Of a DNA stretch of 64,000 nucleotides, positions 43,907-62,131 are shown piece after piece. The notes under the pieces are model-generated. The model saw only the letters and a program-made list of their open reading frames with translations, made no database searches and was not told the DNA's origin. The translations under genes were made by a program, and so were the position numbers. The DNA comes from Hoeflea sp. (GTDB lineage: Bacteria > Pseudomonadota > Alphaproteobacteria > Rhizobiales > Rhizobiaceae): positions 62,001 through 126,000 of the forward strand of contig JAHRFE010000026.1 of the NCBI GenBank assembly GCA_019084245.1, in the 5' to 3' direction. Position 1 is the first letter of the stretch, and the number at the start of each line of letters is the position of its first letter.

Positions 43907-46378
43907 TCAGGCGTTGATGGTTGCAGGCCCCAAAAGGGACAATGAACCCAGCTGCCGTTTGACAATATCTTCCAATGGTTCCGGTCGATGGAGATGGAAG
44001 CCCTGACCATAGGCCACGCCCAACCTTGTCAAATGGGTCAGGATCTCCTGGTTCTTGATTTTCTCCGCCACGACATCGAAGCCCAGATTTCTGGCAAGCT
44101 CGACGACAGATGCAACAATCGCGCGATCGACTTTGCTTTCTGCGATTCTCTCCACAAACGCGCCGTCTATCTTGATGCAATTAATGGGAAAGCGGCGCAG
44201 ATAGTCAAAAGAGCTGAGGCCCGATCCAAAATCATCCAGAGACACCATGCAGCCATGCTGGCGCGCGTTGAGTACAAATCCGTTCGCGGTCTCAAAACAG
44301 GTGACCGCCGCGGTTTCTGTAATCTCGAATGCAATCTGGGGAAGCGGTGTTCGGTGTTCTTCCGCCGTCGCAGTCACGAAGGACCAAAGACCAGGGTCAG
44401 CCAAGGTCTGAGCTGACAGATTGAACCCTATCTTGAGATCAAACGCCTCCAGCAGATGCCCATAGTCGGCAAAGGCCTTTCTTATGATCCAACGGTCGAG
44501 GACGGATGCCATTCCAAAACGCTCCGCGGCAGGAATGAAAGCATCGGGGCCGACGATACGACCGTCCCGATCCTGCAATCTGGCCAGGATCTCCACACGT
44601 CCGCACCGGTCGTGAGGTTGCTCCAGCGAGCGGATTTCCTGGGCGAACAGAATCACCCTGTTTTCCTCAAGGGCACTCATGAGATCCACGACTTCCCTTG
44701 CTGCGGAAAATCCGCTGGTCGCCGAGTTCCTGTCTTCGGTGAAAAACGAGAACCGATTCCGGCCAGCCGATTTGGCGGCGTAGCAGGCATCGTCGGCGCG
44801 CGCCAATGCGTCTGATGCCGTGGTCGAAGGATCGCTCACCATGGTGATGCCGATACTGCAGCCCAATCGCGGCCCGCCCACCACGCATCCAACATCAATA
44901 TCCCGTATAGCCGCGATTACATTCGTGGCAATCTTCCGGGCTGCTTCTCTGTCTGAACCCGGCAGCAGGATGGCGAATTCATCACCGCCGAGTCGTGCAA
45001 AGAACGCATTTCCGGGCAGCAGTTTCGCAATTCCTGCCGCAAGCAGTTTCAGCGCTTCATCACCAGCCGCATGTCCAGCGAAATCGTTGATGGCCTTGAA
45101 GTGATCAAGATCCAGATAGAAGACGGAAAATGCCTTATCGGCCGCCCCGCTGATCGCATTCTCCAGCGCCTCATCGAAAGCAACCCTGTTAAAGAGTCCG
45201 GAGAGCGCATCATGATGGGCCGCATAAGCAAGTTGCTTATGACGCAGCGTTTCCTCTGTTATGTTTTGAAATGTATAGACATTACCCCACCAGTCCCCGG
45301 ATGGCGATGTAATCGGATTGTTCTTGCACCTGTAAATCCCGGAATTGATGTGAAGTGTCGAATTGTTGTTGCGGTCTCCTTGATCGCTTGCAATCTCATG
45401 TTCGATCGGCGCGTCACGATTGAACAGATGGAAAATGTTTGTGCCGATGACATCTTCCTTGTCCACAGACAGCATTGCCCTGGCTGACGGATTGGCAAAG
45501 TTGACCACTCCTTCGATGCTCGTGCTGATCACGGCATCACTGATTGCATCCAGGGTGACTTCATATCGCTCTTTCTCGGCTTGAAGGGCGCGGGATGCGC
45601 GCACCTCGTCCGTGACGTCCCGGATTGTCCCCACCAGCAATCCTGAGTATCCCTGACCAGGAACGGATTTCGCAAGTGTCTCGACATGGCGGATTTCACC
45701 GCCCTTCCTCATGATCCTGTAGCGAAGCCGGACTTCGTTGTGTTCGCAGAGGGCTTGCATATGCTGCCGCTCAGCGTGCAATTTGTCGTCAGGGTGGAGA
45801 AATCCATGCCACGTTTCGCCACTGATGTCTGCCGGGCGCGACTCCAATCCGAAGATCTCGCAGGTCTTGGCATCCCAGAAACTTCTCTTGCGATCGACAT
45901 CATAATGCCAGATGCCGATTTCCGAGGCTGAGAGCGCGAGTCTGAACCGCTCGTACATCAAACTCAGGTCTCGTTCGGCTTCCTTCTGCTTTGTGATATC
46001 CGTCTGAACGCCTATGACCCGCAACGGAAGACCATTTTCATCGCGCTCAATGACTGCGCCTCTATCCAGGACCCACACCCAGTGACCGTCCTTGTGGCGA
46101 AGCCGCAATTCGGTTTCAATGCTATCAGATTTTCCGGCCAGATGCCGGTCGCCGCTCTCTATTGCTCGTTCCCGATCCTCGGGATGGACCAGCAAGAGAA
46201 ACAGATCTGCGTTCTCGGCAAAGTCGCTTCGCGTGTATCCGAGCATTCGCCGCCAGGACTCTGAGTACACACAGATCTGGGTTTTCAGGTTCCAGTCCCA
46301 AACACCCAGCCCAGCCGCTTCCAGGGCCTGCTTCCACCTGTCATTCTCTTCAATGAAAGACCTGCTTGGATAGTCCAT
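43907..46378 (-). CDS. PAS-PAS-PAS-GGDEF-EAL cyclic di-GMP enzyme
   Basis: The 823-residue soluble signalling protein has three PAS domains (about residues 15-130, 140-260 and 270-380), a diguanylate cyclase domain with intact GGDEF at 464-468 and a phosphodiesterase domain from about 570 to 815. In the latter the EAL motif is EIL (596-598), while the other metal ligands look kept (FNLS, EITE, DDFGSG at 715-720, IKID). No RxxD inhibitory site precedes GGDEF. Which activity dominates cannot be read from the sequence. It stands alone between the glp and TRAP operons. Confidence 0.9.
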   Translation of the reverse strand: MDYPSRSFIEENDRWKQALEAAGLGVWDWNLKTQICVYSESWRRMLGYTRSDFAENADLFLLLVHPEDRERAIESGDRHLAGKSDSIETELRLRHKDGHWVWVLDRGAVIERDENGLPLRVIGVQTDITKQKEAERDLSLMYERFRLALSASEIGIWHYDVDRKRSFWDAKTCEIFGLESRPADISGETWHGFLHPDDKLHAERQHMQALCEHNEVRLRYRIMRKGGEIRHVETLAKSVPGQGYSGLLVGTIRDVTDEVRASRALQAEKERYEVTLDAISDAVISTSIEGVVNFANPSARAMLSVDKEDVIGTNIFHLFNRDAPIEHEIASDQGDRNNNSTLHINSGIYRCKNNPITSPSGDWWGNVYTFQNITEETLRHKQLAYAAHHDALSGLFNRVAFDEALENAISGAADKAFSVFYLDLDHFKAINDFAGHAAGDEALKLLAAGIAKLLPGNAFFARLGGDEFAILLPGSDREAARKIATNVIAAIRDIDVGCVVGGPRLGCSIGITMVSDPSTTASDALARADDACYAAKSAGRNRFSFFTEDRNSATSGFSAAREVVDLMSALEENRVILFAQEIRSLEQPHDRCGRVEILARLQDRDGRIVGPDAFIPAAERFGMASVLDRWIIRKAFADYGHLLEAFDLKIGFNLSAQTLADPGLWSFVTATAEEHRTPLPQIAFEITETAAVTCFETANGFVLNARQHGCMVSLDDFGSGLSSFDYLRRFPINCIKIDGAFVERIAESKVDRAIVASVVELARNLGFDVVAEKIKNQEILTHLTRLGVAYGQGFHLHRPEPLEDIVKRQLGSLSLLGPATINA

Positions 46379-46625: not shown

Positions 46626-47201
46626 TCAGGCGGATGTCCCGCCGTCCGGGCGCACACCGCGATGCGCCACTCCATCTGGCAGCGTGAAGCGACGTCGCAG
46701 CGACTTGACCACTGCCATTGCCGATACGGGCGACTGAAATGCGAGACCGGATTCAGATACGTCGAGTGGCTCCAGCGTCTTCAACTGGCTGTCGAGCAGG
46801 GTCGGCGGCATGAAATGGCGCGTTCTTGCGGCCATCCTTTGGGCAAGCGTCTCGCGGTCCAGATCAAGGTGGACGAAGGCGGCATCGTCGCGGCCGCCCA
46901 CAAGGGTGCGGCGGTAGCTCTGCTTGAGCGCAGAACAGGAGACCACGACGCCTGCGCCCTGCCCTCGCCACCTGTTGATTTCCTCGGCGATCGCGGCAAG
47001 CCAGGGTTCGCGCATCTCGTCGGTCAGCGCCGTGCCATTGCTCATCGCTTCGATGTTCTGTGCCGGATGAAGATCATCACCCTCGATATAGGACCAGCCG
47101 AGCAGATCGGCGAGTTCGATAGCGAGCGTGGACTTTCCACAGCCGCATACCCCCATGACGATGATCACGGCGAGCGGCGGGCCTGGAAGATCATCGGTCA
47201 T
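46626..47201 (-). CDS. gntK: Gluconokinase (GntK family)
   Basis: The 191-residue P-loop kinase has GVCGCGKS at 17-24, YIEGDDLHPAQNIEAMSNGTALTDEMREPWL and VVSCSALKQSYRRTL, all diagnostic for gluconokinase, which makes 6-phosphogluconate. The P loop holds two cysteines, an uncommon variant. Its ATG overlaps the dctM stop by four bases, so it is the last gene of the TRAP operon and probably phosphorylates the imported sugar acid or a product of it. Confidence 0.9.
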   Translation of the reverse strand: MTDDLPGPPLAVIIVMGVCGCGKSTLAIELADLLGWSYIEGDDLHPAQNIEAMSNGTALTDEMREPWLAAIAEEINRWRGQGAGVVVSCSALKQSYRRTLVGGRDDAAFVHLDLDRETLAQRMAARTRHFMPPTLLDSQLKTLEPLDVSESGLAFQSPVSAMAVVKSLRRRFTLPDGVAHRGVRPDGGTSA

Positions 47202-48469
47202 GTCAGTATCCGCGCAGGCCACAGGACGATTTCCGGAAAGGCAGCCACCGCCACCAGCACAAGGATGTTGAGAATATAAAACGGAACAGTCGCCAGTGTC
47301 AGACGCTCGACCGGGATTCGGGCCACCTGAGCGGCAGCAAAGAGACAGGTGCCGACCGGCGGCGAGGCCAGGCCGACGGCGAGACAGGCGGTCATGAAGA
47401 CGACGAAATGCAGCGGATCGACGCCGGCAAGCACAGCCGCCGGCATCATGACCGGGATCAGCATCAGAGCCGCCGCAACGATATCCATCAGCATGCCGAC
47501 AATCAGGAAGACAATGCCCATCAGCAGAAGTGTGGCAAAGCCGCTGCTGGCGATGTGGGACATCAGGCCCGCGGTCTTGTTGGGCAGAAGGTCGACGGTG
47601 AAGATGAAGGTGGCTGCATTGGCGACCATCAGGATCAGCAGCACCGAACCGGCCGTCCTGCCGGAGTGGACGATCAGCGGCACCAGGTCGCGAAACCCGA
47701 TTTCCCGGTAGACCAGAAAACCAACCAGGAAGGTGTAGAGCACGGCCAGACCGGCGGCCTCCGTGGGCGTGACGATACCGGAAAACATTCCGGTCAGGAT
47801 GATGACCGGCGCGCCCACGGCTGGAACCGCACGCCCGATGGCGCCAAGGCTGTGGCGCGCAGTTTGCCGCTTCACTTCGCCATAGCCGCGCCGCCAGGAA
47901 ATGTAGCCGTTGTAGCAGGCGAGCGCCACGGCGAGCAGAATGCCGGGTCCGAGCCCGCCGGCGAGTGCGGCGCCCACGGACTGACCCGAAGATGAAGCCG
48001 CCACGATCATCAGGATACTGGGCGGCACCAGGGTCGCCAAGGTTGCGGTGATCAGCGTCAGCGCCGCCGAGTAAGGCAGAGGATATCCACGGGTGGTCAT
48101 GGCGCGAATGCTGATCGGGCCGAGACTGGCGATGTCGGCGACCGAGGATCCTGAAATGCCGCCGAAAACAAAGCTCGAGGCGATGTTGACATAGCCCAGG
48201 CCGCCGCGAAAACGGCCAACCACGGCTTCCGCGGCATCGAAGATGCGCTCCGACAGGCCGCCACGCTCCATGATCTGGCCGGCAAGGATGAATAGCGGGA
48301 CGGCGATCAGCAGGAAGGAGTTGATCGAGGTCGCCATGTTCTGGGTAATCATTGCCACCGGCAGGCCGTAATACCACAAGGTGATCACCGCCGAGAGGCC
48401 GAGCGACAGCGACAATGGCACGCCAAGCAGAGCAATAACGCCGAACAGCACGAGAAGGGTAATGCTCAT
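47198..48469 (-). CDS. dctM: TRAP transporter large permease (DctM)
   Basis: The 423-residue membrane protein has about twelve helices and the DctM motifs GRFRGGLGYVNIASSFVFGGISGSSVADIASLG, PSILMIVAASSSGQSVGAALAGG and VFMTACLAVGLASPPVGTCLF. It forms the ion-driven channel part of a tripartite ATP-independent transporter. The ATG overlaps the dctQ stop (ATGA), and the stop overlaps gntK. Confidence 0.93.
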   Translation of the reverse strand: MSITLLVLFGVIALLGVPLSLSLGLSAVITLWYYGLPVAMITQNMATSINSFLLIAVPLFILAGQIMERGGLSERIFDAAEAVVGRFRGGLGYVNIASSFVFGGISGSSVADIASLGPISIRAMTTRGYPLPYSAALTLITATLATLVPPSILMIVAASSSGQSVGAALAGGLGPGILLAVALACYNGYISWRRGYGEVKRQTARHSLGAIGRAVPAVGAPVIILTGMFSGIVTPTEAAGLAVLYTFLVGFLVYREIGFRDLVPLIVHSGRTAGSVLLILMVANAATFIFTVDLLPNKTAGLMSHIASSGFATLLLMGIVFLIVGMLMDIVAAALMLIPVMMPAAVLAGVDPLHFVVFMTACLAVGLASPPVGTCLFAAAQVARIPVERLTLATVPFYILNILVLVAVAAFPEIVLWPARILT

Positions 48470-48957
48470 CGGCGCACCTCTGCTGACTGGTCCATATCAC
48501 CCGGTTCAACCAAGGCGTAGGTGATGGCTCCGATGGGCGCCAGCACCGCGCCGATGATCAGCGGCAGCGTGGTGATCCACATACCCATCTGTAGAATGGG
48601 CGAGATCTCGCCGAAACGCAGCTGCTGCCGGAACAGCTTGAACCCGAACCAGGCGACAATGGAAAAGAACACCAGCGCGGCCAGCGGCGTGAGCAAACGA
48701 AGATATTTTTGAACCGACCAGGGCAGCCCCTCGGCGAAAAGGCCGAGCGACGGATGGGTGCCATAGCGGAAACCGGTGGCCATACCGAGAAAGGTGGTCC
48801 AGATGAACAAAAACCGCGAAAGCTCCTCGGTCCACGGAGCGGACTGACCAAGGAAGCGGGTTCCAACCTGGGTGCAGATCAGAAGCACCATGCCGACCAC
48901 CGCAACGAAGATCGCCGCATCGACAACAAGCCATATTGCCCGGTCAAACCGTTTCAT
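48466..48957 (-). CDS. dctQ: TRAP transporter small permease (DctQ)
   Basis: The 163-residue protein has four hydrophobic helices and the DctQ core LGQSAPWTEELSRFLFIWTTFLGMATGFRYGTHPSLGLF. It completes the membrane part of the TRAP transporter with DctM. The stop overlaps the dctM start, and the binding protein lies 71 bases upstream. Confidence 0.92.
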   Translation of the reverse strand: MKRFDRAIWLVVDAAIFVAVVGMVLLICTQVGTRFLGQSAPWTEELSRFLFIWTTFLGMATGFRYGTHPSLGLFAEGLPWSVQKYLRLLTPLAALVFFSIVAWFGFKLFRQQLRFGEISPILQMGMWITTLPLIIGAVLAPIGAITYALVEPGDMDQSAEVRR

Positions 48958-49028
48958 CTTCTTCCTCCTCCGCGCCTGGCGCAGGCAGGGACTCTCAACG
49001 AGCCCCTGCCCGGCGGCGTTGCCTGGGC

Positions 49029-50063
49029 TTATCCCTGCAAGAACTGCATGCTCGTCTTCATGAAGTCGGCGCCGATCTGTTCCTCGAACTCAGGATAGAT
49101 GCTATGCGCGAGTTCCTGGGTTTTTTCCAGTTCGCCCGGCTCGAAACGGTTGACCTGCATTCCGAGCTCCTCCAGCTTGACGATGATTTCGGCCTCCTGG
49201 GCAATCTCTTCGTCGTCGTGCTTGCTGACCATATCGGTGGCCGCCTTGCGGACCGCATCATGATGCTCGGCGGGAATCTGTTCCCAGGCGGTCTTCGAAA
49301 GCGCCAGAAGGAACGAATCGGCCAGATGCTGGGTCATGTTGAGATGGCTCTGGACTTCGAACAGCTTGTTGTTAAAGGGCACTTCCACCGGATTTTCCTG
49401 GCCGTCAATGGTCTTGAGCTGCAGGGCGCTGTAGACTTCGGAGAAAGCCATCGGCGTCGGGTTGGCGCCAAGTGTCTGGAACAGGCGCACCCAGAGCGGA
49501 TTGTTCGGGGTACGCAAGGTGAGACCCTTGAAATCCTCGACCTTGGTGATCGGCGTTTCGCGCGTTGTGACATTGCGGAAGGTGCGAAGGAAAATGCCAA
49601 GGCCGACGATGTCGAGGCGATCAAGCGAAGACAACAGGGTCTGGCCTGGCTCGCCGCCGAGATAGCCGCGCAACTGGTCATAGTCCTTGAACAGATAAGG
49701 CAAGCTGATGGCGTTCATCTTCGGCTCGAACGAGGCGTAAACACTGCTGGCGAGAATAAGGCCGTCAAGCGAGCCTGCGCCGAGCTGGTTGATGGCGGCG
49801 TTCTGGTCCTTGCCGAACAGGATGCCGTCGGCAAACACCTGGAAGGAGACTTCACCGCCGGTGCCTTCCTTGACGAAATCGGCGAACTGCGTCGCGGCGC
49901 GGCCGACCGACGAGTCCGCTGGATCCGGCACGGCCAGGCGCAGGGTCGTGGCGGCGCGGGTCGCGGTGATGAAAGCCGGAGCAGCCAGGGCGAGGGCTGC
50001 GGCGCCACCGCCATATTTAAGCAGCGAGCGGCGATCGATTTTAGAATTGAACAAGGTCTTCAT
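49029..50063 (-). CDS. dctP: TRAP transporter substrate-binding protein (DctP), Tat-exported
   Basis: The 344-residue periplasmic protein has a twin-arginine signal (RRSLLK at residues 11-16), then a hydrophobic core ending near TRAA. The mature part has the DctP features ETPITKVEDFKGLTLRTPNNPLWVRLFQTLGANPTPMAFSEVYSALQ (including the conserved arginine that binds a carboxylate) and TIDGQENPVEVPFNNKLFEVQ. The substrate should therefore be an acid. GGAGGAG precedes the ATG at 50063. Confidence 0.92.
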   Translation of the reverse strand: MKTLFNSKIDRRSLLKYGGGAAALALAAPAFITATRAATTLRLAVPDPADSSVGRAATQFADFVKEGTGGEVSFQVFADGILFGKDQNAAINQLGAGSLDGLILASSVYASFEPKMNAISLPYLFKDYDQLRGYLGGEPGQTLLSSLDRLDIVGLGIFLRTFRNVTTRETPITKVEDFKGLTLRTPNNPLWVRLFQTLGANPTPMAFSEVYSALQLKTIDGQENPVEVPFNNKLFEVQSHLNMTQHLADSFLLALSKTAWEQIPAEHHDAVRKAATDMVSKHDDEEIAQEAEIIVKLEELGMQVNRFEPGELEKTQELAHSIYPEFEEQIGADFMKTSMQFLQG

Positions 50064-50118
50064 GGTCTTCTCCTCCAACAGTCAGACAGGTGGCACTGGG
50101 CCGGTTAACCGCGCCGCC

Positions 50119-51039
50119 TCAGGCGGTGAGCGGAGCATATTCTTCAGGCGGCAGTCCGTTCCGCCTGGAAAGTTCGAGAAAAACAGCGCTGTGGTCGAGG
50201 TCGCCGCCGCCATGGGCGACGAGATCACCAAACAGCCGGTCTGCAAGATTGAGCATCGGCAGATCGAGCCCGAGGGCCGTCGCGGTCTCGCGCGCGGCGC
50301 CCGTGTCCTTGATCTGGTATTTCGCCGGGCCACCCGGTTCGAAGGCGCCGTCGATCATGCGCTGGCCGTGCAGGTCGAGAATGCGCGAACCGGCAAATCC
50401 GGCCATCAGCGCCTCCCGGACCCGGGCGATGTCGGCGCCACCCTGGCGAGCCAGCAGCAACGCCTCGGCGACGGCGACGATGGTGCTGGCGACCGTCAGC
50501 TGATTGACGAGCTTGGTCAACGCGCCAGTCCCCGCCGGGCCGATATGGACCGGTTTGCCCATGGCCTTGAAGATCGGGTTTGCGGCCTCCACATGCTCGA
50601 CGCTGCCGCCAACCATGATCGAAAGCGAACCGCCAATGGCGCCGACTTCGCCGCCGGAGACCGGCGCATCGAGATAGGCAATTCCGGCGCGGCCGGCCAA
50701 GTCCGCCTGGGTCTTTGCGGTTTCGACCGGGATCGAGCTCATCACGATCAGCAGCGCGCCCGGGCGCATCGCGGCTATTGCGCCACCGGGGCCAAAAAGC
50801 ACCTCGTCGCAGACCGGGCCCGAACTGAGCATCACCACCACCGCGTCCTGGCCTGTTGCAGCTTGTGCAGCAGTCGCCGCTATTGCGACACCGTCAGCAG
50901 TCAGCTTTGCGGCCTTGGCCGGATCCCGGTTCCACGCTGTCACGTCAAAGCCGGCGCGGGCGAGGTTGCGAGCCATGGGCGCCCCCATGATCCCGGTGCC
51001 GAGAAAGCCGATCCGTCGGACAGTGTCAGGATTGTCCAT
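50119..51039 (-). CDS. Beta-hydroxyacid dehydrogenase (HIBADH/GarR family)
   Basis: The 306-residue NAD(P)-dependent enzyme has the N-terminal Rossmann motif GFLGTGIMGAPMARNL, the substrate motif DAPVSGGEVGAIGGSL and the catalytic lysine in TKLVNQL. The family includes 3-hydroxyisobutyrate, tartronate semialdehyde and L-threonate dehydrogenases. It overlaps the end of the ABM gene by 14 bases and lies 55 bases upstream of dctP, so it should act on the imported acid. Start 51039 is preferred over 51048. Confidence 0.88.
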   Translation of the reverse strand: MDNPDTVRRIGFLGTGIMGAPMARNLARAGFDVTAWNRDPAKAAKLTADGVAIAATAAQAATGQDAVVVMLSSGPVCDEVLFGPGGAIAAMRPGALLIVMSSIPVETAKTQADLAGRAGIAYLDAPVSGGEVGAIGGSLSIMVGGSVEHVEAANPIFKAMGKPVHIGPAGTGALTKLVNQLTVASTIVAVAEALLLARQGGADIARVREALMAGFAGSRILDLHGQRMIDGAFEPGGPAKYQIKDTGAARETATALGLDLPMLNLADRLFGDLVAHGGGDLDHSAVFLELSRRNGLPPEEYAPLTA

Positions 51040-51370
51040 CAGCGACATCCCGGTGGTTGTGGTCACAGGACAGGAAGCGAACCGGACGCTCAACCTCGAT
51101 CAGAGCCGGAAACGCCCGCCGGAAACGGTCAAGATGTGGCGTCTCGAGATGGGAGTCGAACGCCTCCCTCGACTTGTACACTTCATAGAAGGTCACCAGA
51201 TCGGGGTCGTCCTCCGACGTGCAGATATCGAATTGCAGGCAGCCTGGTTCGTCAGCGACCGAATGGTTGGCATCGTCGCGGGCAATGGCGAGAAAGTCTT
51301 CGCGCATGCCGGGTTTGACCTCAAACTGGGCAATGACCGCAAAAAACGTAGTCCTGTGGGACGATTGCAT
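51026..51370 (-). CDS. ABM family (putative quinol monooxygenase/isomerase)
   Basis: The 114-residue protein has the dimeric alpha-beta barrel of antibiotic-biosynthesis monooxygenases: AVIAQFEVKPGMREDFLAIARDDANHSVADEPGCLQFDI and FYEVYKSREAFDSHLETPHLDRF. Many ABM proteins in sugar operons (such as LsrG) are not oxygenases but isomerases, and such a role would fit here. It sits three bases after the SAF oxidoreductase gene and overlaps the dehydrogenase gene. Confidence 0.85.
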   Translation of the reverse strand: MQSSHRTTFFAVIAQFEVKPGMREDFLAIARDDANHSVADEPGCLQFDICTSEDDPDLVTFYEVYKSREAFDSHLETPHLDRFRRAFPALIEVERPVRFLSCDHNHRDVADGQS

Positions 51371-51373
51371 GGT

Positions 51374-52723
51374 TCAACGGCTCCCATCGACGAGCATGCC
51401 GTTCTGCTCTTCCCGCAATGCCACGATGTCGGCGTCATTGACCAGTTCGACGTCTGAGAAGCGGACCACCTGATCCTTGGCAATGGCGTTCTTGAGACGG
51501 ACATTGTGCGCCAGGCCGATCGGCAGCGCATCCAGTGCGCGCGACTTCGACGCCGGGATCGCATTGGCCCAGACCGCGAAGCCGCCTTCGCCGTCCAGCA
51601 TGTCGCCGGCCTTGAGGTCGCATTTGGCGGTCGCCACGGCATCGCCGCGGAATTCCTTGCTGGAGCCGGTCGGCTCGCCACGCAGCACGGCGGACAGCAC
51701 GCTGACGCTGGTTTCGAGCCCGATCAGGTGGAACGGCCGCCACATCGAGCCGTACCAGCCGGACTTGTCGGTCAGCAGGCCGTATTGCTTGAAGCAGGCG
51801 CGGGTGTATTCGTCAGGCGCCTTGAAGGTGACGAACATGCCGTAGCGGATGTTGTTGAGCACCTCGCGGCCATCGGGTTCCTGGCTTGCGGCGATCTCGA
51901 CCAGGCCGGTCTTGGGCATCCTGCCGCCATCTGAAGCCGGCTTGAACACCTGGGCCAGGTCCTGCAGGCCGGCCGGATAGAAGGCAAGGCCGTCATCGGG
52001 GCAATCCAGACCGGTGCCATTGGCGACAGCCGCCATCTCGATGGCCGCCTTGGTGCCGTCGGTGAAGGAATTGTACATTTTCGGATTGAAATCGCCTGCG
52101 GCAACTTCTTCGTCCGACCAGCCGAAGAAGCTCCAGACCGTGTCAGGCGTCGAATAGCGGTAGCGCGGCTCGTAGTTCATGCCCTTGCCGGCAGAGATCA
52201 GCTCGAAACCGCAACTGCGGACCCAGTCAACCAGCTCGCAGATGAAGGCCGGCTGATCGCCATAGGCCATGGAATAGACCACACCTTGTTCGCGCGCCTT
52301 CTTGGCCAGAATCGGGCCGCACATCACATCGGCTTCGACATTGACCATGACGATGTTCTTGGACGCCTCGATCGCCATCAATGCGTGGCGGGTTCCGGCG
52401 AGCGGATGGCCGGTGGCTTCGATTATACAGTCGATTCCCTCGAAGGCGACCAGGGCGGCGACATCGTCGGTGACGCAAGTGGCGCCCGACTTGTAGGCGT
52501 CGGCCAGCGTCTTGGCGCTGTACTGGACTTCGTCCCAGCCAACGCGCTTGAGCGATTCGCGCGCCTTTGCGACATTGAGATCGGCGACGCCGACGACATG
52601 GTAGCCCTCAATGCACTTGGCCTGGGCCAGCATCATCGAGCCGAACTTGCCGGCGCCGATGATTCCGACCCGGACAGGACGCCCGCTTTCATTGCGGGTT
52701 GCAAGCATTGACGAAAGGTTCAT
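51374..52723 (-). CDS. NAD(P)-dependent oxidoreductase with SAF domain (COG4091-like)
   Basis: The 449-residue protein has an N-terminal homoserine-dehydrogenase-like Rossmann domain (VGIIGAGKFGSMML, then GVADLNVAKA) and a C-terminal SAF-like domain (about 355-440: GDAVATAKCDLKAGDMLDGEGGFAVW and ALPIGLAHNVRLKNAIAKDQVV). Such proteins are found in operons for sugar-acid or polyol use but have no settled activity. Start 52723 has AGGAG at six bases. It is the first structural gene after the LysR gene, and the promoter at 52910-52937 drives it. Confidence 0.83.
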   Translation of the reverse strand: MNLSSMLATRNESGRPVRVGIIGAGKFGSMMLAQAKCIEGYHVVGVADLNVAKARESLKRVGWDEVQYSAKTLADAYKSGATCVTDDVAALVAFEGIDCIIEATGHPLAGTRHALMAIEASKNIVMVNVEADVMCGPILAKKAREQGVVYSMAYGDQPAFICELVDWVRSCGFELISAGKGMNYEPRYRYSTPDTVWSFFGWSDEEVAAGDFNPKMYNSFTDGTKAAIEMAAVANGTGLDCPDDGLAFYPAGLQDLAQVFKPASDGGRMPKTGLVEIAASQEPDGREVLNNIRYGMFVTFKAPDEYTRACFKQYGLLTDKSGWYGSMWRPFHLIGLETSVSVLSAVLRGEPTGSSKEFRGDAVATAKCDLKAGDMLDGEGGFAVWANAIPASKSRALDALPIGLAHNVRLKNAIAKDQVVRFSDVELVNDADIVALREEQNGMLVDGSR

Positions 52724-52909
52724 TGGGCGCTCCTGTTGCAGCCATCCGCATACCGCGGATTTCGGATTCATCTGGCGGGATCAGTTCGAAACAGCGTGGC
52801 GAGACCTGCGCATGGGGCGCAACGATCCATCCGGGCCGAAGCCCGTGCCAGCGACAATGTTCTGAATGTCTCCTCTGCCGGGCTTCTCTCTCCCACCCGG
52901 CCATTGGAC

Positions 52910-52937
52910 ATTACAGGCGTGTGTTGATGTAGTTCAA
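52910..52937 (-). promoter_or_regulatory. Candidate sigma-70 promoter of the TRAP/SAF operon
   Basis: On the minus strand TTGAAC (52932-52937) and TGTAAT (52910-52915) are separated by 16 bases, close to -35 and -10 boxes. A 10-base palindrome TTCAATTGAA overlaps the -35 box at 52933-52942 and could be a LysR site. The leader to the SAF gene would be about 180 bases and shows no known riboswitch. Confidence 0.5.
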
Positions 52938-52945
52938 TTGAATTA

Positions 52946-52965
52946 ATCTAACTTAATGGTTAGAT
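52946..52965. repeat. Inverted repeat at the LysR gene end
   Basis: ATCTAAC at 52946-52952 and GTTAGAT at 52959-52965 form a perfect 7-base stem around TTAATG, covering the LysR stop codon. It lies ten bases upstream of the -35 box of the SAF operon. It could stop LysR transcription or be an activator site. Confidence 0.5.
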
Positions 52966-53874
52966 TTTCTTCTGTATTTCGACGCAACTCTCAAGCCAGA
53001 GACGTGCTTCCCGATCAATCCAGTTGATGAACCGCTTGACCCTTGCGCGGCGCAGGTGGTGCGGCGGGCAGACAAGCCATTGCGTCGTCAGCATGAAGGA
53101 CGGCGCATTGGCGATCGGCACGACCAGGGCGCCGCTTTCCAGTTCCGCCTGCATCATCAACAGGCTTTCGAGCGCCACGCCCATGCCCGACACTGCGGCA
53201 TCGACGGCCATATGCGAGCGGTCGAAGTATATCTTTTGCCAGTTCCCGTCGACGGGAAGTGACTGGGCTGAAAACCACGCCGACCACTGCAATTGCGATT
53301 TGACCGAATGAATGAGCCGCATGGCCTGAAGGTCGGCAAGATCGAGGCTGCCTGCTGCGGCGAGCTTGGGGGAGCAGACCGGGACGAACATCTCCTGGGC
53401 CAGTGGCTGGACATGCATTCCGGTCCAGCGGCCTTCGCCATGGCGGATCTCGATGTCGACATTGTCACGGGTGAAATCGACCGGCTCGTTGGAGCCGTCG
53501 AGCCGGATGTCGAGACCGGAATTTTCCGCGATGAAACCGGGCAACCTTGGCAGCAGCCACTTGGTCGAGATGCTGGGGGTCGCGCGGATGTTGAGCAGTT
53601 CGGTGGTCCGCGCGCCGGTGATCTGCCGTGTCGCCTCCCAGATATGCTCGATGTTCTCGGCGATCATTTCGAAATAGCGCTCGCCGGTTTCGGTCAGGCG
53701 CACTTCGCGGCCGACCTTGCGCACAAGCGTGGTTCCGAGCTGCTCTTCGAGCGTGCGGATCTGCTGGCTTATCGCCGAGGGTGTCACCCCGAGATATTCG
53801 GCCGCCTTCGAGACGCTGTTGAGCCGCCCGAGCTGGTAGAAGACGCCGATGGATCGTAACGGAGGCAAATGCAT
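52960..53874 (-). CDS. LysR (GcvA-like) regulator of the SAF/TRAP operon
   Basis: The 304-residue LysR protein starts MHLPPLRSIGVFYQLGRLNSVSKAAEYLGVTPSAISQQIRTLEEQLGTTL, as in the GcvA group, and has the effector domain from residue 90 on. It is on the same strand and just upstream of the SAF operon, so it likely senses its substrate. GGAGGAAC lies about ten bases before the ATG at 53874. The open frame goes on further upstream, but that part has no family likeness. Confidence 0.87.
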   Translation of the reverse strand: MHLPPLRSIGVFYQLGRLNSVSKAAEYLGVTPSAISQQIRTLEEQLGTTLVRKVGREVRLTETGERYFEMIAENIEHIWEATRQITGARTTELLNIRATPSISTKWLLPRLPGFIAENSGLDIRLDGSNEPVDFTRDNVDIEIRHGEGRWTGMHVQPLAQEMFVPVCSPKLAAAGSLDLADLQAMRLIHSVKSQLQWSAWFSAQSLPVDGNWQKIYFDRSHMAVDAAVSGMGVALESLLMMQAELESGALVVPIANAPSFMLTTQWLVCPPHHLRRARVKRFINWIDREARLWLESCVEIQKKI

Positions 53875-54198: not shown

Positions 54199-55491
54199 AT
54201 GGAAAATCAGACGAAACAGATCCGGAAGCCGTCCACCCTGTCAGACCGTGCGGCTCCTGCGGAGGATCCTGCCGTCACGGCGGAAGTCGAAAGGCTTTTG
54301 ACGCTTCGCACCCGCGACATTCGCTTCAGGGGGGAGATCAACCGGCTCTATCAGGCACGCATCTGGCCGCAAACGGCCAAGATCATTCGAGCGTGGATGA
54401 TATGGGTGGCCATTCTGGGCGTCATCACGCTGGCCCTCAACATGCTGCTGCTTCCGCCGGCGGTGTCGCTTTCCATGATCATGCCCAACGCAGTCATCCC
54501 TCCGATTGCGATTGCCGTTGCTCTTGTCTGGCAAAGGCCGCGCCCGCCATGGCTGCAAGGGAGCCTGCTGATCGCGGGCATGTTTCTCATTCTTCTGGCA
54601 GTCGCGCTGGTCGGCGTCAGGGCCGGAGGAGAATTCTACGAACGCAGCTTGAACATCATGTTGTTCGTGGCAATCACCGCCATCATCATCTTCGGCATTC
54701 CACTGGCATGGACAGTGACCATCGCCGCGCTGGCGCTCAGCCTCTATCTTTTCCTGCAACTTGCCAACCCTGCTCTCGAACTTGGAAGCGCCGTGGCCGC
54801 GACGCTTTTCTTTGCCACCGGCATCTTCGCGACAGTCGTTGCCCGGCGCAACATGACGCTTCTGGCCCAGAAGACGTTCCTTTTCGGGTTGCGCGACCGT
54901 CGCCGGGTCACTGAGCTGGCCGATGTCAACGATCGGCTCGAACGTCTGGCGCGGCTTGATCCGCTCACCGGGCTTGCCAACCGGCGCTGGATGGAAGAAT
55001 CGCTCAGCCATGTGTGGGGCGATGGTCATCGTCGGCGCGACCGCATCGCCATGCTGATGTGCGACATCGACGAGTTCAAGAAGCTGAACGACCATCTTGG
55101 CCATGCCGAAGGGGATCGCTGCCTTGTGGAGGTCGCCAGGATCATCCAGCAGAATGTGCGAAGCAACGCCGACCATGTGGCGCGTTACGGGGGCGAAGAG
55201 TTCCTGGTGCTGCTTCCCGGGATGAGCGAGGAGGAGGCCCTGTTCGTGGCGGAACGGATCCGCGAAAGCGTCGAGGCGGCCGGATTTCCCAACCCGACGT
55301 CCCGCGTGTCGCGTTTCATCACGCTGAGCATCGGGGTTGCTGTGCTGGGACCTGCCGGCGAGGCCTTGTCGCCCGAGCAGCTGCAGCGCAATGCCGACGC
55401 CGCGCTTTACGTGGCCAAGCAGTCTGGCCGCAACCGCGTCGTGGCCTACCGGCCGGCGTCACCGGACCTTCGGACCGCACACACGGCCTGA
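54199..55491 (+). CDS. Membrane-bound diguanylate cyclase (GGDEF)
   Basis: The 430-residue protein has a charged N terminus, six hydrophobic helices at about residues 65-215 and a C-terminal GGDEF domain with the active motif GGEEF at 331-335 (RLDPLTGLANRRWMEE, then CDIDEFKKLNDHLGHAEGD). It makes cyclic di-GMP at the membrane. No RxxD inhibitory site is seen at the usual place before GGEEF. The start at 54199 is chosen since the previous part is poor; a TTG at 54112 is an alternative. The signal is unknown. Confidence 0.88.
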   Translation: MENQTKQIRKPSTLSDRAAPAEDPAVTAEVERLLTLRTRDIRFRGEINRLYQARIWPQTAKIIRAWMIWVAILGVITLALNMLLLPPAVSLSMIMPNAVIPPIAIAVALVWQRPRPPWLQGSLLIAGMFLILLAVALVGVRAGGEFYERSLNIMLFVAITAIIIFGIPLAWTVTIAALALSLYLFLQLANPALELGSAVAATLFFATGIFATVVARRNMTLLAQKTFLFGLRDRRRVTELADVNDRLERLARLDPLTGLANRRWMEESLSHVWGDGHRRRDRIAMLMCDIDEFKKLNDHLGHAEGDRCLVEVARIIQQNVRSNADHVARYGGEEFLVLLPGMSEEEALFVAERIRESVEAAGFPNPTSRVSRFITLSIGVAVLGPAGEALSPEQLQRNADAALYVAKQSGRNRVVAYRPASPDLRTAHTA

Positions 55492-55615: not shown

Positions 55616-57121
55616 CTATTTCAGTTCGAGCGGCAGCAGCGCGTCCGGCATGTTCTGATAGGCCACGGGCCGAATGAACCTGCGGATGGCGAGCGTGCCG
55701 ACCGACGTAGCCCCGAAATTGGTGGAGGCCGGATAGGGGCCGCCATGCACCATGGCGTCACAGACCTCCACGCCGGTCGGGAACCCGTTGGCGAGGATGC
55801 GCCCGGCCTTGCGCTCGAGGATCGGCATCAGCTCCTTTGCCAGATCGAGATCGGCATCGTCCATCTGCAGCGTGCAGGTCAGCTGGCCATGAAGGTCAAG
55901 CGCGATGGCTTTCATCTGCTCCTCGTCATCCGCCTCGACGACGATTCCGAGCGGACCAAAGACCTCTTCGGCCAGAACGCGGTTGTCGAGCCAGTCGCTG
56001 CCGGCGACGCGGTAGAGATAGGGTGCGGCATTGCGGCCGTCGCAGGAGGCGGCCAGCAGTTCTTCCACGCCCGCGGTGGCGGCGACAGCGTCGCGTCCGG
56101 ATCTGTAGGCCGAGGCGATGCCGTCGGTCAGCATGGTCTGCGGATTGACGTCGGCCAGCGCCGCGCTGGCCGCATCCGAGAAGGATTTCGCTTCATCGCC
56201 CTTTACCGCGATAACGACGCCGGGATTGGTGCAGAACTGCCCCGCCCCCATGGTCAGCGATCCGGCCCAGCCTTTCGCGATCTCGGCGCCGCGGGCCTTG
56301 AGCGCATGCGGCATCAGGAACATCGGATTGATCGAGCCAAGCTCGCCGTAAAACGGAATCGGCGTCGGGCGCGCGGCGCACAGGTCAAACAGTGCCCTGC
56401 CCGCTCCGAGCGATCCGGTGAAGCCGACGGCCTGGATCAGCGGATGGGTGACCAGCGCCTCACCGGCCTCGCGGCTGTTGGACTGGACCAGCGAGAACAC
56501 GCCCGGATGAACCCCGCAGGTCTTGATCGCGGCATCGATTGCCTGGGCCACGATTTCGGCGGTTCCCGGATGGGCGGGGTGCCCCTTGACCACGACCGGA
56601 CAGCCCGCGGCGAGCGCCGACGCGGTGTCGCCGCCCGCCGTCGAGAACGCCAGCGGGAAATTCGACGCGCCGAAGACGCCGACCGGACCCACAGGCCGCT
56701 CGACCATCTTGATGTCGGGGCGCGGCAGCGGCGCGCGGTCGGGCAGCGCCTTGTCATGGCGGCGGTCGAGATAGGCGCCGTCAAGAATATGCGACGCAAA
56801 CAGGCGCAGCTGACCGGTGGTGCGACCACGTTCGCCGTTCAGCCGCGCTTCCGGCAGGCCGGTTTCGGCCGTGCCGATCGCGGTCAGCGCCTCGCCGCGC
56901 GCTTCGATTTCATCGGCGATGGCGTTGAGGAACTTGGCCCGGCTTTCCGCCGTCGAATAGCCGTAGCTCCAAAACGCAGCTTCGGCGGCCTTCGCGGCTG
57001 CATCGATATGGACCTTCGTGCCCTGGGCATAGTCAGCCGCCGGGCCATGCGCCGGCTGGGAGCTGAATGTGGTGTCTCCAGCAACCCATTGTCCTGCAAT
57101 CAAGTGCTTTCCGGTGATCAT
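55616..57121 (-). CDS. 2-oxoglutarate semialdehyde dehydrogenase (aldehyde dehydrogenase, NADP+)
   Basis: The 501-residue aldehyde dehydrogenase has the active cysteine C297 (QFCTNPG), the general base E260 (FYGELGS) and N154 (GASNFPLAFS). The FGASNFPLAFSTAGGDTASALAAGCPVVVKGHPAHPGT region is typical of the subgroup that oxidises 2-oxoglutarate semialdehyde in pentose and hydroxyproline pathways. It is the last step of the pathway encoded in this operon, giving 2-oxoglutarate. It starts 52 bases after the dehydratase gene stop. Azospirillum calls the equivalent gene araE. Confidence 0.87.
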   Translation of the reverse strand: MITGKHLIAGQWVAGDTTFSSQPAHGPAADYAQGTKVHIDAAAKAAEAAFWSYGYSTAESRAKFLNAIADEIEARGEALTAIGTAETGLPEARLNGERGRTTGQLRLFASHILDGAYLDRRHDKALPDRAPLPRPDIKMVERPVGPVGVFGASNFPLAFSTAGGDTASALAAGCPVVVKGHPAHPGTAEIVAQAIDAAIKTCGVHPGVFSLVQSNSREAGEALVTHPLIQAVGFTGSLGAGRALFDLCAARPTPIPFYGELGSINPMFLMPHALKARGAEIAKGWAGSLTMGAGQFCTNPGVVIAVKGDEAKSFSDAASAALADVNPQTMLTDGIASAYRSGRDAVAATAGVEELLAASCDGRNAAPYLYRVAGSDWLDNRVLAEEVFGPLGIVVEADDEEQMKAIALDLHGQLTCTLQMDDADLDLAKELMPILERKAGRILANGFPTGVEVCDAMVHGGPYPASTNFGATSVGTLAIRRFIRPVAYQNMPDALLPLELK

Positions 57122-57173
57122 CTTAGGTATTCCATTTCAAAATTTGTGGTTTGCGGCAGATCACGCGATCCGC

Positions 57174-58091
57174 CTATTTGCCCCATTTCAGGGCCATGAC
57201 GTCAAGCTCGGCGGCAAGCTGCAGCAGGCGGGTCCTGGTGCGCTCCGTCATCGGCTTGAGCGGGTGGCGGACATGATCACTGGCGATCACGCCGCCCTCC
57301 TTGAAGACCACTTTTGCGGCGCGAAGTCCACACTGGCGGTTCTCATGATTGATCAGCGGCAGGCATTTCTCCCACTGCTTGAGCGCTGCATCCTTGTTGC
57401 CCGCCCGGTATTCGGTGACGATGGGCCGGATCTTTTCGGGGAACATCGCCGATGTCATCGTGCCGGTGGCGCCGGCGTCGAGATCGGCAAGCAGCGTCAC
57501 GGCTTCCTCGCCGTCGAACGGTCCCTCGATGTACTCCCCCGCAGCCTCGATCAGCGCGGCAAGCTTGTCGGCGGCGAAGGGGCATTCGATCTTGAAATAG
57601 GAGACGTTCTCAAGCTCCTTGGCCAATCGCGCCAGCAGATCGACAGACATGGTCACGCCCGACAGCGGCGCATCCTGGACCATGATCGGGATGGAAATGG
57701 CATTGTTCACCACTTCGAAATGCTCGAAGATCCCTTGCGGCGCGGGAAAAAGCCCGGAGCCGTGATAGGGCGGCATCATCATGATCATCGAGGCGCCCAT
57801 GGATTGGGCAAGCTTTGCCCGCTCGGTCGCCACCTGGGTGGAGAAATGGCTGGTGGTGACGATCACCGGCACGCGGCCGGCCGCATGCTCGAGGCTTGTC
57901 CGCATGAGCAGGGTGCGCTCCTCGTCCGACAGCAGGAACTGCTCGGAATAATTGGCCAGAATGCAGATTGCATCAACGCCCTGATCGATCATGCAGTCGA
58001 TCACCCGGCGCATGCCGTCCTCATCCACCCGTCCATCCGGATGGAAGGGCGTCGGCGCGACGGGAAGAATGTTGGCGATCGGTTGGGTCAT
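57174..58091 (-). CDS. 2-keto-3-deoxy-sugar-acid dehydratase, DapA/NAL family
   Basis: The 305-residue TIM-barrel protein is of the dihydrodipicolinate synthase family. The Schiff-base lysine is K167 (SYFKIE), and the N terminus is LPVAPTPFHPDGRVDEDGM. The usual second YN motif is replaced (IPIMVQDAPLSGV), as in L-2-keto-3-deoxyarabonate dehydratase, which gives 2-oxoglutarate semialdehyde. Its position between sugar dehydrogenase and semialdehyde dehydrogenase supports this. Aldolase activity is the alternative. It stands 84 bases from the previous gene and 52 from the next. Confidence 0.82.
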   Translation of the reverse strand: MTQPIANILPVAPTPFHPDGRVDEDGMRRVIDCMIDQGVDAICILANYSEQFLLSDEERTLLMRTSLEHAAGRVPVIVTTSHFSTQVATERAKLAQSMGASMIMMMPPYHGSGLFPAPQGIFEHFEVVNNAISIPIMVQDAPLSGVTMSVDLLARLAKELENVSYFKIECPFAADKLAALIEAAGEYIEGPFDGEEAVTLLADLDAGATGTMTSAMFPEKIRPIVTEYRAGNKDAALKQWEKCLPLINHENRQCGLRAAKVVFKEGGVIASDHVRHPLKPMTERTRTRLLQLAAELDVMALKWGK

Positions 58092-58175
58092 GGTCTGGTC
58101 CTTTCAGACTGTCTCTTGTTGTCTCGGCAGGGGTGCGCTACCGCGCTGGGCGACTTCATTTGCCGGCTTATCAAA

Positions 58176-59111
58176 TTACTCGACAAAGGGCTCGACGGTG
58201 ATCCGCTTGCCCAGCAGGAACGCATCGGCGACATGCGCCATCGGCGCGAGATCCATGTCCACGCCCCCTGCCCGCACGAGATTTGCCATCCTGGCATAGA
58301 GCCGCGGATACTCGCCCTTGAGCGCGTCGCCGGCAGCGTCGGTCTGGGACACCCCGTCGATCTCGAGCGTCGCACCGCCTTCGGACAGCACCAGGCTGCC
58401 CTGATCCGTCCTGATCGCAATGTTCCAGAACTGATCGCCTTCCTTGCGGAAATCGAATTCGGCGCTGACCTGCGCCCCATGCGGATGCGCAAAGGCAAGG
58501 GTCGCGGCGATCGGGGTTTCGCAGTTTTCCGGAATGAACAGCTCCGACGCGGTCAGATGGATCGGATCGGCAAGGATCTCGGTGACGATCGACAGCGCGT
58601 TGATGCCGGGGTCGAAGACGCCGAGCCCGCCGGCCTGCCAGATCCAGGTCTGGCCGGGATGCCATTTGCGCACGTCTTCCTTCCAGGTCACAATCAGGCT
58701 CTCGAGCCGCTTGCCTTCGAGCCAGGCCTTTGCGGTGGCCACCATCGCGGCTTCCCGGGAATGCCAGGTCGCATAGATCGAGACGCCGGCCGCGCGGGCC
58801 ATGGCTTCGAGCGCATGGCACTCGGACACGGTCGCGCCCGGCGGCTTTTCCAGCATCACATGGCGACCCGCGGCAATCGCCGCCCTCGCATAGTCGAACC
58901 GCGGCACCGGCGGCATGCACAGCGACACCACGCCGATGTCGGGCCTGGCCTCCAGCATGGCGCCGAAATCATCGTGAGACTCGACGCCGTCGACCGTCGC
59001 ATGACGCGAGACCGTGGCCGCGAGCTCCCAGTCCGGCGATGCGGTGATCGCCGGAATATGCTGGTCGCGGGCGATCTTGCCGATCCCCGCCAATGCTACC
59101 TTCAATGCCAT
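58176..59111 (-). CDS. Sugar 1-dehydrogenase, Gfo/Idh/MocA family (L-arabinose/D-galactose type)
   Basis: The 311-residue NAD(P)-dependent protein has the Rossmann start ALKVALAGIGKIARDQHIPAI, close to Azospirillum L-arabinose 1-dehydrogenase, and the Gfo/Idh motif MLEKPPGATVSE. It should oxidise L-arabinose or D-galactose to the lactone. The start ATG shares its first base with the last base of the dehydratase TGA. The N-terminal part before it in the same frame is not part of the protein. Confidence 0.85.
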   Translation of the reverse strand: MALKVALAGIGKIARDQHIPAITASPDWELAATVSRHATVDGVESHDDFGAMLEARPDIGVVSLCMPPVPRFDYARAAIAAGRHVMLEKPPGATVSECHALEAMARAAGVSIYATWHSREAAMVATAKAWLEGKRLESLIVTWKEDVRKWHPGQTWIWQAGGLGVFDPGINALSIVTEILADPIHLTASELFIPENCETPIAATLAFAHPHGAQVSAEFDFRKEGDQFWNIAIRTDQGSLVLSEGGATLEIDGVSQTDAAGDALKGEYPRLYARMANLVRAGGVDMDLAPMAHVADAFLLGKRITVEPFVE

Positions 59112-60853: not shown

Positions 60854-60904
60854 GATAACTCCGAAGCCCCTGTCCGTTTCGGGCAGGCGGCCCTCCTTGT
60901 TGGT

Positions 60905-62128
60905 TCAGCTCTGTTTGTTCTTGTTGTAGACGTCGAAGATCACCGCGGCCAGCAACACAAGGCCCTTGATGACCTGCTGGTAGTCGATGCCGATCCCCAT
61001 GATCGACATGCCGTTGTTCATCACGCCCATGATAAAGGCGCCGACGACCGCGCCGACGATCTTGCCGACCCCGCCGGACATCGAGGCGCCGCCGATGAAT
61101 ACCGCCGCGATGACATCCAGTTCGAAGGAGACGCCGGCCTTGGGGGTTGCCGTGTTCAGTCGCGCGGCGAAGATCAGCCCCGCAAGCGCTGCCAGCATGC
61201 CCATGTTGACGAAAGCCAGGAAGGTCAGCCGCTCGGTCCTGATCCCCGATAGCTTGGCCGCCTTCTCGTTGCCGCCCAGCGCATAGATTCGGCGACCGAG
61301 CGTGGTGGATTCGGTCAGGAACGCGTAGACGATGGTCAGGATGCCCATGGTGATCAGGACGTTGGGCAGGCCACGGAAGGTCGCAAGCTTGTAGGACACG
61401 AACACGATCGCGCCGGCGACCAGCAGATTGCGCACTACAAAGAAGATCATCGGTTCCGTCACCATGCCATAGGCGCGGTTGCGGGCGCGTGCCTGCAGCC
61501 CCATCCAGATGATCAGGCCCGCTATGACAAAGCCGGTGACCACGGCAAAACCGTTCATGCGCTCAAAGCCGAACATGTCCTTGATGAAGGGAAGCAGATC
61601 GGGGATGAAGCCGGTCGACAACGCCTGGAATTCCCGCGGGAACGGCCCCACCGACTGGCCTTCGAGCAGCCACAGCGACGCGCCGCGGAACACCAGCATG
61701 CCGGCCAGCGTCACAATGAAGGATGGAATCCGCCAATAGGCGATCCAGTAGCCCTGGGCGGCGCCGATGAGGATGCCCACGAAGAGACAGGCGGGAATGG
61801 TGAGATAGATCGACCAGCCCCACTGCACCATCATCACTGCGGCGAGCGCGCCGACGAAGCCCACGACTGAGCCCACCGACAGGTCGATATGGCCTGCGAC
61901 AATCACCAAAAGCATGCCCAGAGCCATGATGATGATGTAGCTGTTCTGCAGGAACAGGTTGGTGATGTTGACCGGGCGCAGCAGCGTGCCATCGGTGGTG
62001 AACTGAAAGAACGCCATGATGGCGATCAGCGCCAGCACCATGCCATAATCACGCAAATGGTTCGCAAGATACTGGCTGACAGAGCGGTCCTGTTGACCGG
62101 CAGTGGACTCTACGGTTTCCGTGGCCAT
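60905..62128 (-). CDS. gguB: Sugar ABC transporter permease (GguB/MmsB type)
   Basis: The 407-residue permease has about ten to eleven helices, larger than RbsC, as in Agrobacterium GguB. Visible are LVIVAGHIDLSVGSVVGFVGALAAV, WRIPSFIVTLAGMLVFRG, GGNEKAAKLSGI and FIGGASMSGGVGKIVGA. It transports pentoses and galactose with GguA and ChvE. It starts three bases after the ATPase gene stop. Confidence 0.9.
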   Translation of the reverse strand: MATETVESTAGQQDRSVSQYLANHLRDYGMVLALIAIMAFFQFTTDGTLLRPVNITNLFLQNSYIIIMALGMLLVIVAGHIDLSVGSVVGFVGALAAVMMVQWGWSIYLTIPACLFVGILIGAAQGYWIAYWRIPSFIVTLAGMLVFRGASLWLLEGQSVGPFPREFQALSTGFIPDLLPFIKDMFGFERMNGFAVVTGFVIAGLIIWMGLQARARNRAYGMVTEPMIFFVVRNLLVAGAIVFVSYKLATFRGLPNVLITMGILTIVYAFLTESTTLGRRIYALGGNEKAAKLSGIRTERLTFLAFVNMGMLAALAGLIFAARLNTATPKAGVSFELDVIAAVFIGGASMSGGVGKIVGAVVGAFIMGVMNNGMSIMGIGIDYQQVIKGLVLLAAVIFDVYNKNKQS

Positions 62129-62131
62129 GGC

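Follow-up and report, generated by a model that had tools for sequence, protein, structure and literature searches.

Organization of the operon

The 64,000-nt stretch of the Hoeflea sp. genome (4.82 Mb, 99.99% complete) analyzed here, hereafter the window, contains an operon of eight genes on its minus strand (Table 1). In order, these encode a GcvA-like LysR regulator, an NAD(P) oxidoreductase of the DLO2 type with a C-terminal SAF domain, a small ABM-fold protein, a dehydrogenase of the HIBADH family, the three components (DctP, DctQ, and DctM) of a tripartite ATP-independent periplasmic (TRAP) transporter, and a gluconokinase of the GntK/IdnK type. The gene set is a conserved catabolic unit lacking a pathway assignment, and at its center is a DXR-II-like enzyme for which we tentatively put forward a reaction on branched sugar acids.

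The open reading frame (ORF) calls and Pfam matches agree with a preliminary description of the window in placing eight tightly packed genes, the LysR gene included, on one strand. The intergenic distances from LysR to GntK are 236, 3, −23 (−14 with the alternative HIBADH start), 55, 71, −4, and −4 bases; the gaps of 3 and 236 bases given in that description were therefore right, while its four overlaps become three with the starts used here. The start of the DLO gene at 52723 (Met-Asn-Leu) is matched by identical residues in all ten relatives displayed. The arginine region said to bind carboxylates in DctP also exists, with R160, R163, and R184 invariant in 14/14 sequences (the window protein and 13 relatives).

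Table 1. Genes of the operon, its flanks, and a separate sugar operon, by position in the window
Feature	Position	Strand	Profile scores and remarks
LysR regulator, GcvA-like	52960..53874	-	GcvA subfamily model 262.7 bits (below cut-off 288); LysR_substrate Pfam 107.3 bits
DLO2-type (DXR-II-like) NAD(P) oxidoreductase, C-terminal SAF domain	51374..52723	-	DRL_cat PF21135 183.7 bits (cut-off 27); SAF 21.1 bits (barely above cut-off 21)
ABM-fold small protein, proposed keto-acid isomerase	51026..51370	-	PF03992 79.8 bits; LsrG model 31.2 bits (below cut-off)
HIBADH-family dehydrogenase, proposed 3-keto-acid reductase	50119..51048 (or 51039)	-	NAD_binding_2 160.4 bits; nearest tartronate semialdehyde reductase
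TRAP solute-binding protein DctP	49029..50063	-	PF03480 253.6 bits
TRAP small permease DctQ	48466..48957	-	PF04290 95.5 bits
TRAP large permease DctM	47198..48469	-	PF06808 333.9 bits
GntK/IdnK-type gluconokinase	46626..47201	-	TIGR01313 159.3 bits (cut-off 113.75)
GGDEF/EAL gene, one flank of the operon	43907-46378		
ORF with GGEEF motif in translation, other flank	54199-55491	+	
Separate sugar operon: aldehyde dehydrogenase, L-arabinonate dehydratase, GguB and GguA of a multiple-monosaccharide ATP-binding cassette (ABC) transporter	55616-63652	-	L-arabinonate dehydratase 942 bits (cut-off 882)

The DLO2 enzyme and its active site

The oxidoreductase had been described as COG4091-like and without a known place in metabolism. 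It belongs to the DXR-II/DRL family, in which it is best placed in the DLO2 branch: it contains the DRL catalytic domain (Table 1) and aligns over its full length, at 194 bits, with PDB entries 3upl and 3upy (entry name "Oxidoreductase"), the latter being the DXR-II of Brucella according to excerpts of Carretero-Paulet et al. (2013, PMC3847144). In the same excerpts the family was split in 2013 into DXR-II, DLO1, and DLO2, the last two uncharacterized, and residue 229 is an absolutely conserved Thr in DXR-II, Leu/Ile/Val in DLO1, and Pro/Ser/Ala in DLO2; fosmidomycin is anchored by Thr229 together with Lys191 and Lys193 (PMC3847144).

Our active-site alignment comprised the window protein, 86 close ("core") relatives, 25 looser relatives (46-56% identity; five plasmid loci and 20 hand-picked from 39 rows of 43-56% identity, those 20 all from the family of the window), and one 32%-identity outgroup protein of S. 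fredii NGR234; 19 core loci fetched later lie outside it. The outgroup is presumably the DXR-II listed for that strain. The equivalents of E141, D143, D167, E232, N238, and H323 are identical in all core, looser, and outgroup sequences, and those of K191 and R320 are kept in 86/86 core relatives and not in every looser one. The window and 86/86 core relatives have Met in place of the anchor K193 and Ala in place of T229, so that the Thr229 plus Lys193 pair of DXR-II is missing from both and the residue at position 229 is one of those that define DLO2. Among the 25 looser relatives, position 193 is Thr (21) or His (4) and position 229 is Ser (21) or Pro (4). The window protein is thus like DXR-II in its family domain, its SAF domain, and the E/D/K/N/H positions common to both, and unlike it in five substitutions (K193M, T229A, H250A, H319W, and Y322F), in its TRAP operon, and in having DXR-I alongside, as the genome encodes one DRL_cat protein and one canonical DXR-I.

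The core forms one clade beside the 25 looser relatives (SH-aLRT 100 by a quick method, branch length 1.26) in a tree that has no DLO1 row and whose lone 32%-identity outgroup sits on a very long branch, which leaves the root unsure. As judged from these sequences, the core is a defined subclade of DLO2 with its own active-site signature. It shares Ala/Ser/Pro at residue 229 and the standing of an uncharacterized oxidoreductase with the DLO2 clade of Carretero-Paulet et al. (2013), and differs from it in being a defined subclade with a conserved operon; we found no gene neighborhoods described in the excerpts of that paper (PMC3847144). Since the K193 and T229 anchors are both replaced, a different, perhaps non-phosphorylated, substrate would fit this active site.

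Distribution and conservation of the gene neighborhood

The core protein is patchily distributed. At ≥74% identity it occurs in 17/297 genomes of the family, the next match being at 56%, and at E 1e-190 it is present in 4/385 genomes of the class and 9/398 of the phylum (own genome counted each time). The relatives named in our scan, the best 80 of 196 confirmed, are 73-83% identical to it. Core relatives come from alpha-, beta-, and gammaproteobacteria, and the looser loci are all alphaproteobacterial except one. The core set of 105 loci (window excluded) was reduced to 102 by dropping three with a duplicate DLO, and 97 of these were usable for next-gene counts, the other five having less than 1.5 kb downstream.

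ABM is the gene directly after DLO in 69/97 core loci, HIBADH follows within 1 kb in 71/97, and both are present in 63/97. Within 9 kb of the 102 core DLO genes we found LysR (94), the TRAP binding protein (83), GntK (26, which misses the copy of locus L094, beside TRAP genes on the opposite strand), a sugar ABC binding protein (18), split transketolase (13), a xylose-isomerase-like protein (11), PfkB (11), an OiaX-like RuBisCO-like protein (5), and a DUF1537-type kinase (5). At the 25 looser loci ABM is next in one, HIBADH is within 1 kb in none, and GntK is near none. The trio of DLO, ABM, and HIBADH marks the core clade, within the limits set by the queries: those for ABM, HIBADH, and GntK were the window proteins and profiles built from core matches, and those for the additional modules were drawn from core loci and a few looser ones, so that the choice of queries itself accounts in part for what the comparison set lacks. 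The preliminary description had named loss of the neighborhood in related genomes as an observation that would undo its proposal of a new route; the neighborhood is conserved, and its recurrence in three classes of Pseudomonadota far exceeds chance. Likewise, no pathway assignment for the gene set turned up in the open-license papers searched, as that description had supposed.

Several layouts combine the trio with the transporter. LysR-DLO-ABM-HIBADH-DctPQM with or without GntK is seen in the window, Martelella, Ensifer, and Halomonas; DLO-ABM-HIBADH-DctPQM-GntK with LysR on the opposite strand in Ancylobacter and Rhizobium; and a divergent TRAP pair with a longer DctM followed by LysR-DLO-ABM-HIBADH in Caballeronia, Methylobacterium, and Herbaspirillum. 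The TRAP binding protein of the Caballeronia/Methylobacterium layout matches PDB 4oan at 353 bits; the title of that entry presumably names an acetolactate-like ligand (a branched 2-hydroxy acid) and is not counted as evidence. In Mesorhizobium (L039, L090, L093, L097, L099, and L119) and at L040 the trio is joined by a sugar ABC transporter, a xylose-isomerase-like protein, RpiR, and PfkB, and most of these loci carry an amidohydrolase with weak similarity to L-fuconolactonase (115 bits, cut-off 400). The isomerase of L040 is nearest PDB 3ktc (178 bits, next structure 69), which is presumably a D-apiose isomerase and is not counted as evidence. These loci may represent a branched-pentose system.

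A further layout (L115, L121, L125, L127, L162, L163, and L164) has DLO with a split transketolase, a short-chain dehydrogenase/reductase (SDR), and a different TRAP binding protein; these loci lack ABM and HIBADH beside DLO, and some have an FAH-family hydrolase. Overall, split transketolase occurs together with ABM or HIBADH in four loci. At L100 (Oceanospirillaceae) DLO lies near a RuBisCO-like protein, a DUF1537-type kinase, and a PGDH_C dehydrogenase. Among NCBIfam models, OiaX is the nearest to the RuBisCO-like proteins of L067, L100, and L121 (456-464 bits, below cut-off 700), and OiaK the nearest to the L100 kinase (491 bits, below cut-off 700). ApnO is a PGDH_C protein; that of L121 matched no ApnO model, so the bare name PGDH_C is kept for such proteins. 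Taken together, the neighbor modules of some relatives point to branched-chain sugar acids.

Three loci stand apart. At L080 (Methylobacterium platani) DLO-ABM is followed by an OiaX-like protein, a DUF1537-type kinase, and an SDR; in contrast to related species, the locus has no HIBADH match. On a plasmid of Phaeobacter inhibens (L046:7420-12393) a looser DLO2 relative lies between HIBADH-family and IlvD-family genes and an SMP-30 lactonase; the IlvD-family dehydratase scores 809 bits to PRK06131, and the arrangement recalls the pair of ketol-acid reductoisomerase and IlvD. The small plasmid pMTH1 of Paracoccus methylutens (L149) carries DLO2 twice, under one and the same protein accession, with HIBADH, aldehyde dehydrogenase, and transposase genes in between.

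The ABM protein, the HIBADH-family enzyme, and the gluconokinase

The sole NCBIfam model matched by the ABM protein is the LsrG isomerase (NF007791), with 31.2 bits against a cut-off of 135, and identification as LsrG was not adopted; a role as an isomerase, raised in the preliminary description, is possible. The HIBADH-family enzyme retains the K/N and DAPVSGG motifs, which are intact in 74/74 relatives scoring >280 bits, and it matches PDB 4dll at 268 bits. Its score with the tartronate semialdehyde reductase model TIGR01505 (265.6 bits) is below the equivalog cut-off of 340.75, and that name too was not adopted.

The kinase belongs to the GntK subfamily by its TIGR01313 score (Table 1) and is the single GntK-family match in its own genome (E 0.001), which also contains edd (1043.8 bits). 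Our survey of 26 records (own genome, one plasmid, and 24 genomes) gave, with L094 left out, 23 genomes without GntK at the locus; 17/20 genomes with an operon GntK hold at least two copies above cut-off. In a GntK tree of 77 rows, in which several "elsewhere" rows duplicate the operon copy, 21/29 operon rows form one clade, four others group weakly, the window and Limnohabitans copies each stand alone in the poorly resolved base, and two rows are poorly aligned. The operon gluconokinases are thus not one clade, and recruitment of GntK from more than one branch suggests that the product of the pathway is an aldonate; gluconate is suggested as the simplest, and not the sole, choice.

Proposed mechanism

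From the computed gene set, protein families, clade, active-site signature, and conservation, and from the observed edd and DXR-I, we put forward a hypothetical route whose reactions, direction, and substrate are all inferred. As our best explanation, which we hold as a possibility well short of a settled one, DLO2 would oxidize and rearrange a non-phosphorylated branched sugar acid, such as hamamelonate or an apionate isomer, and ABM, HIBADH, and GntK would complete the conversion to a phosphoaldonate. Specifically, the TRAP transporter would import the sugar acid, and the substrate of DLO2 would be the free acid with a tertiary carbinol bearing a CH2OH branch. DLO2 would then run the DXR reaction backwards on a molecule that has a carboxylate at the position of the methyl group in 2-C-methyl-D-erythritol 4-phosphate (MEP), in that the CH2OH on the tertiary carbinol would be converted to the aldehyde and a skeleton shift would give the ketose. 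A 2-C-hydroxymethyl aldonic acid would in this way yield a 2-keto aldonic acid, and D-hamamelonate (2-carboxy-D-arabinitol) would yield a 2-keto-hexonate configured like gluconate at C4 and C5. The ABM protein would shift the keto group from C2 to C3, and the HIBADH enzyme, whose family reduces 2-hydroxy-3-oxo acids, would reduce the C3 keto acid to the aldonate, from which GntK would form a 6-phosphoaldonate for the Entner-Doudoroff route via Edd. The net redox of such a route would be balanced. According to the title of a reference in PMC9833046, the phosphate of D-hamamelonate is the same compound as the leaf Rubisco inhibitor CA1P (2-carboxy-D-arabinitol 1-phosphate).

Several observations weigh against this mechanism. 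Neither ABM nor HIBADH is found in 20/97 core loci, ABM alone occurs in 6, and HIBADH alone in 8, so neither is indispensable. GntK lies near only the 26/102 core DLO genes given above, 9/23 genomes without it at the locus have none above cut-off anywhere (14/23 have one elsewhere), and the deep part of the GntK tree lacks resolution. The window kinase keeps many, not all, of the residues conserved in 39 non-operon copies: position 52 is Lys/Arg in 39/39 of these and Ala in the window, and position 63 is Asp in 33/39 and Met in the window. The Ala at position 52 means that the substrate may not be gluconate. Furthermore, an aldose isomerase of the xylose isomerase type requires a hydrogen on C2, and hamamelose does not fit. 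No OiaX-type protein was found in the Hoeflea genome at E 1e-60, and such proteins are present in 90/297 genomes of the family; because they are so common and absent here, their occurrence near 5/102 core loci gives weak support. They are found in 9/17 genomes with core DLO vs 81/280 others (one-sided Fisher p 0.038), or above cut-off in 8/17 vs 50/280 (p 0.0076), values uncorrected for relatedness and genome size. A C5 branched acid would suit the transketolase and OiaX-like layouts better, so substrates or fates probably differ from one part of the clade to another.

Alternative explanations

A linear aldonate salvage, in our judgment hardly less probable than the branched-acid route, would make DLO2 a plain dehydrogenase that converts a C6 aldonate (a gluconate epimer) to a keto acid, with ABM and HIBADH shifting the keto group and reducing it again to yield D-gluconate and GntK phosphorylating it, as in the L-idonate/gluconate (Idn/Gnt) route, where a GntK-type kinase and two oxidoreductases lead to 6-phosphogluconate. 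The kinase score above the subfamily cut-off, edd in the genome, the two dehydrogenases within one operon, and the absence of a cleavage enzyme from the commonest layouts all accord with it, and many TRAP binding proteins bind linear aldonates. The Idn/Gnt route, however, has other dehydrogenase families and another transporter, and a plain dehydrogenase leaves unexplained both the DXR-II frame and the OiaX/OiaK-like and transketolase neighbors of some relatives. A C4-C5 linear hydroxy acid, within the range of four to six carbons first suggested, is considerably less probable: TRAP transporters carry carboxylates and the relatives of HIBADH include L-threonate dehydrogenase (154.3 bits, cut-off 350), but the eight products include no DUF1537-type kinase, PdxA, or class II aldolase, and the operon kinase is of the GntK type.

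For D-apionate or an isomer, a doubtful candidate, DLO2 would form a 4-keto-pentonate, a split transketolase (where present) would give tartronate semialdehyde, and a HIBADH-family enzyme would form glycerate. Tartronate semialdehyde reductases are indeed the nearest relatives of HIBADH, split transketolase is near 13/102 core loci, including 8/20 of those without ABM and HIBADH, and OiaX/OiaK-like enzymes are near 5/102; against this, transketolase, OiaX, and OiaK are all absent from the window operon, the HIBADH score is below the equivalog cut-off, and ABM and GntK are left without a clear step. At the far end, the SAF enzyme might be a second 1-deoxy-D-xylulose 5-phosphate reductoisomerase of the MEP pathway, as membership of the DXR-II family would allow. 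This we regard as highly improbable and reject: with a canonical DXR-I encoded elsewhere in the genome, a role in isoprenoid synthesis is unlikely, T229 and K193 are replaced in 86/86 core relatives, the operon setting is catabolic, and a DXR mutant was not complemented by any of the four DLO1/DLO2 members tested in PMC3847144.

Relation to known pathways and implications

The proposed DLO2 mechanism can be set beside two known branched-sugar systems. Routes for D-apiose are described in excerpts of PMC6302742. These and the D-apionate pathway resemble the present case in the OiaX/OiaK-like enzymes beside a few core loci, and differ in that their genes are absent from the window operon and no OiaX-type protein was found in the genome at the threshold given above. 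In the D-apionate pathway of Carter et al. (2018), ApnO reportedly shifts a hydroxymethyl group; DLO2 is not known to be ApnO. Ochrobactrum anthropi has a route for D-hamamelose, likewise a branched sugar, that is reported to use a RuBisCO-like protein (Kim et al. 2018, as cited in PMC8914248; also among the references of PMC10176493). It brings to mind the RuBisCO-like protein beside 5/102 core loci, whereas none of the OiaX type is in this genome.

The essence of our proposal, possible if rather unlikely when taken in full, is that a lineage of DXR-II has become a catabolic oxidoisomerase for branched sugar acids, performing an acyloin shift in the reverse-DXR direction on a free acid and giving a route free of RuBisCO-like proteins, for example from 2-carboxy-D-arabinitol, from which leaves make a Rubisco inhibitor. 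For the uncharacterized DLO2 branch, the genomic context is now defined precisely and the substrates worth testing are narrowed to a few, so that a function left open in 2013 can now be assayed. If the mechanism is true, the carbon-skeleton shift of isoprenoid biosynthesis would also serve catabolism, and there would be a further route by which microbes break down branched plant sugar acids.

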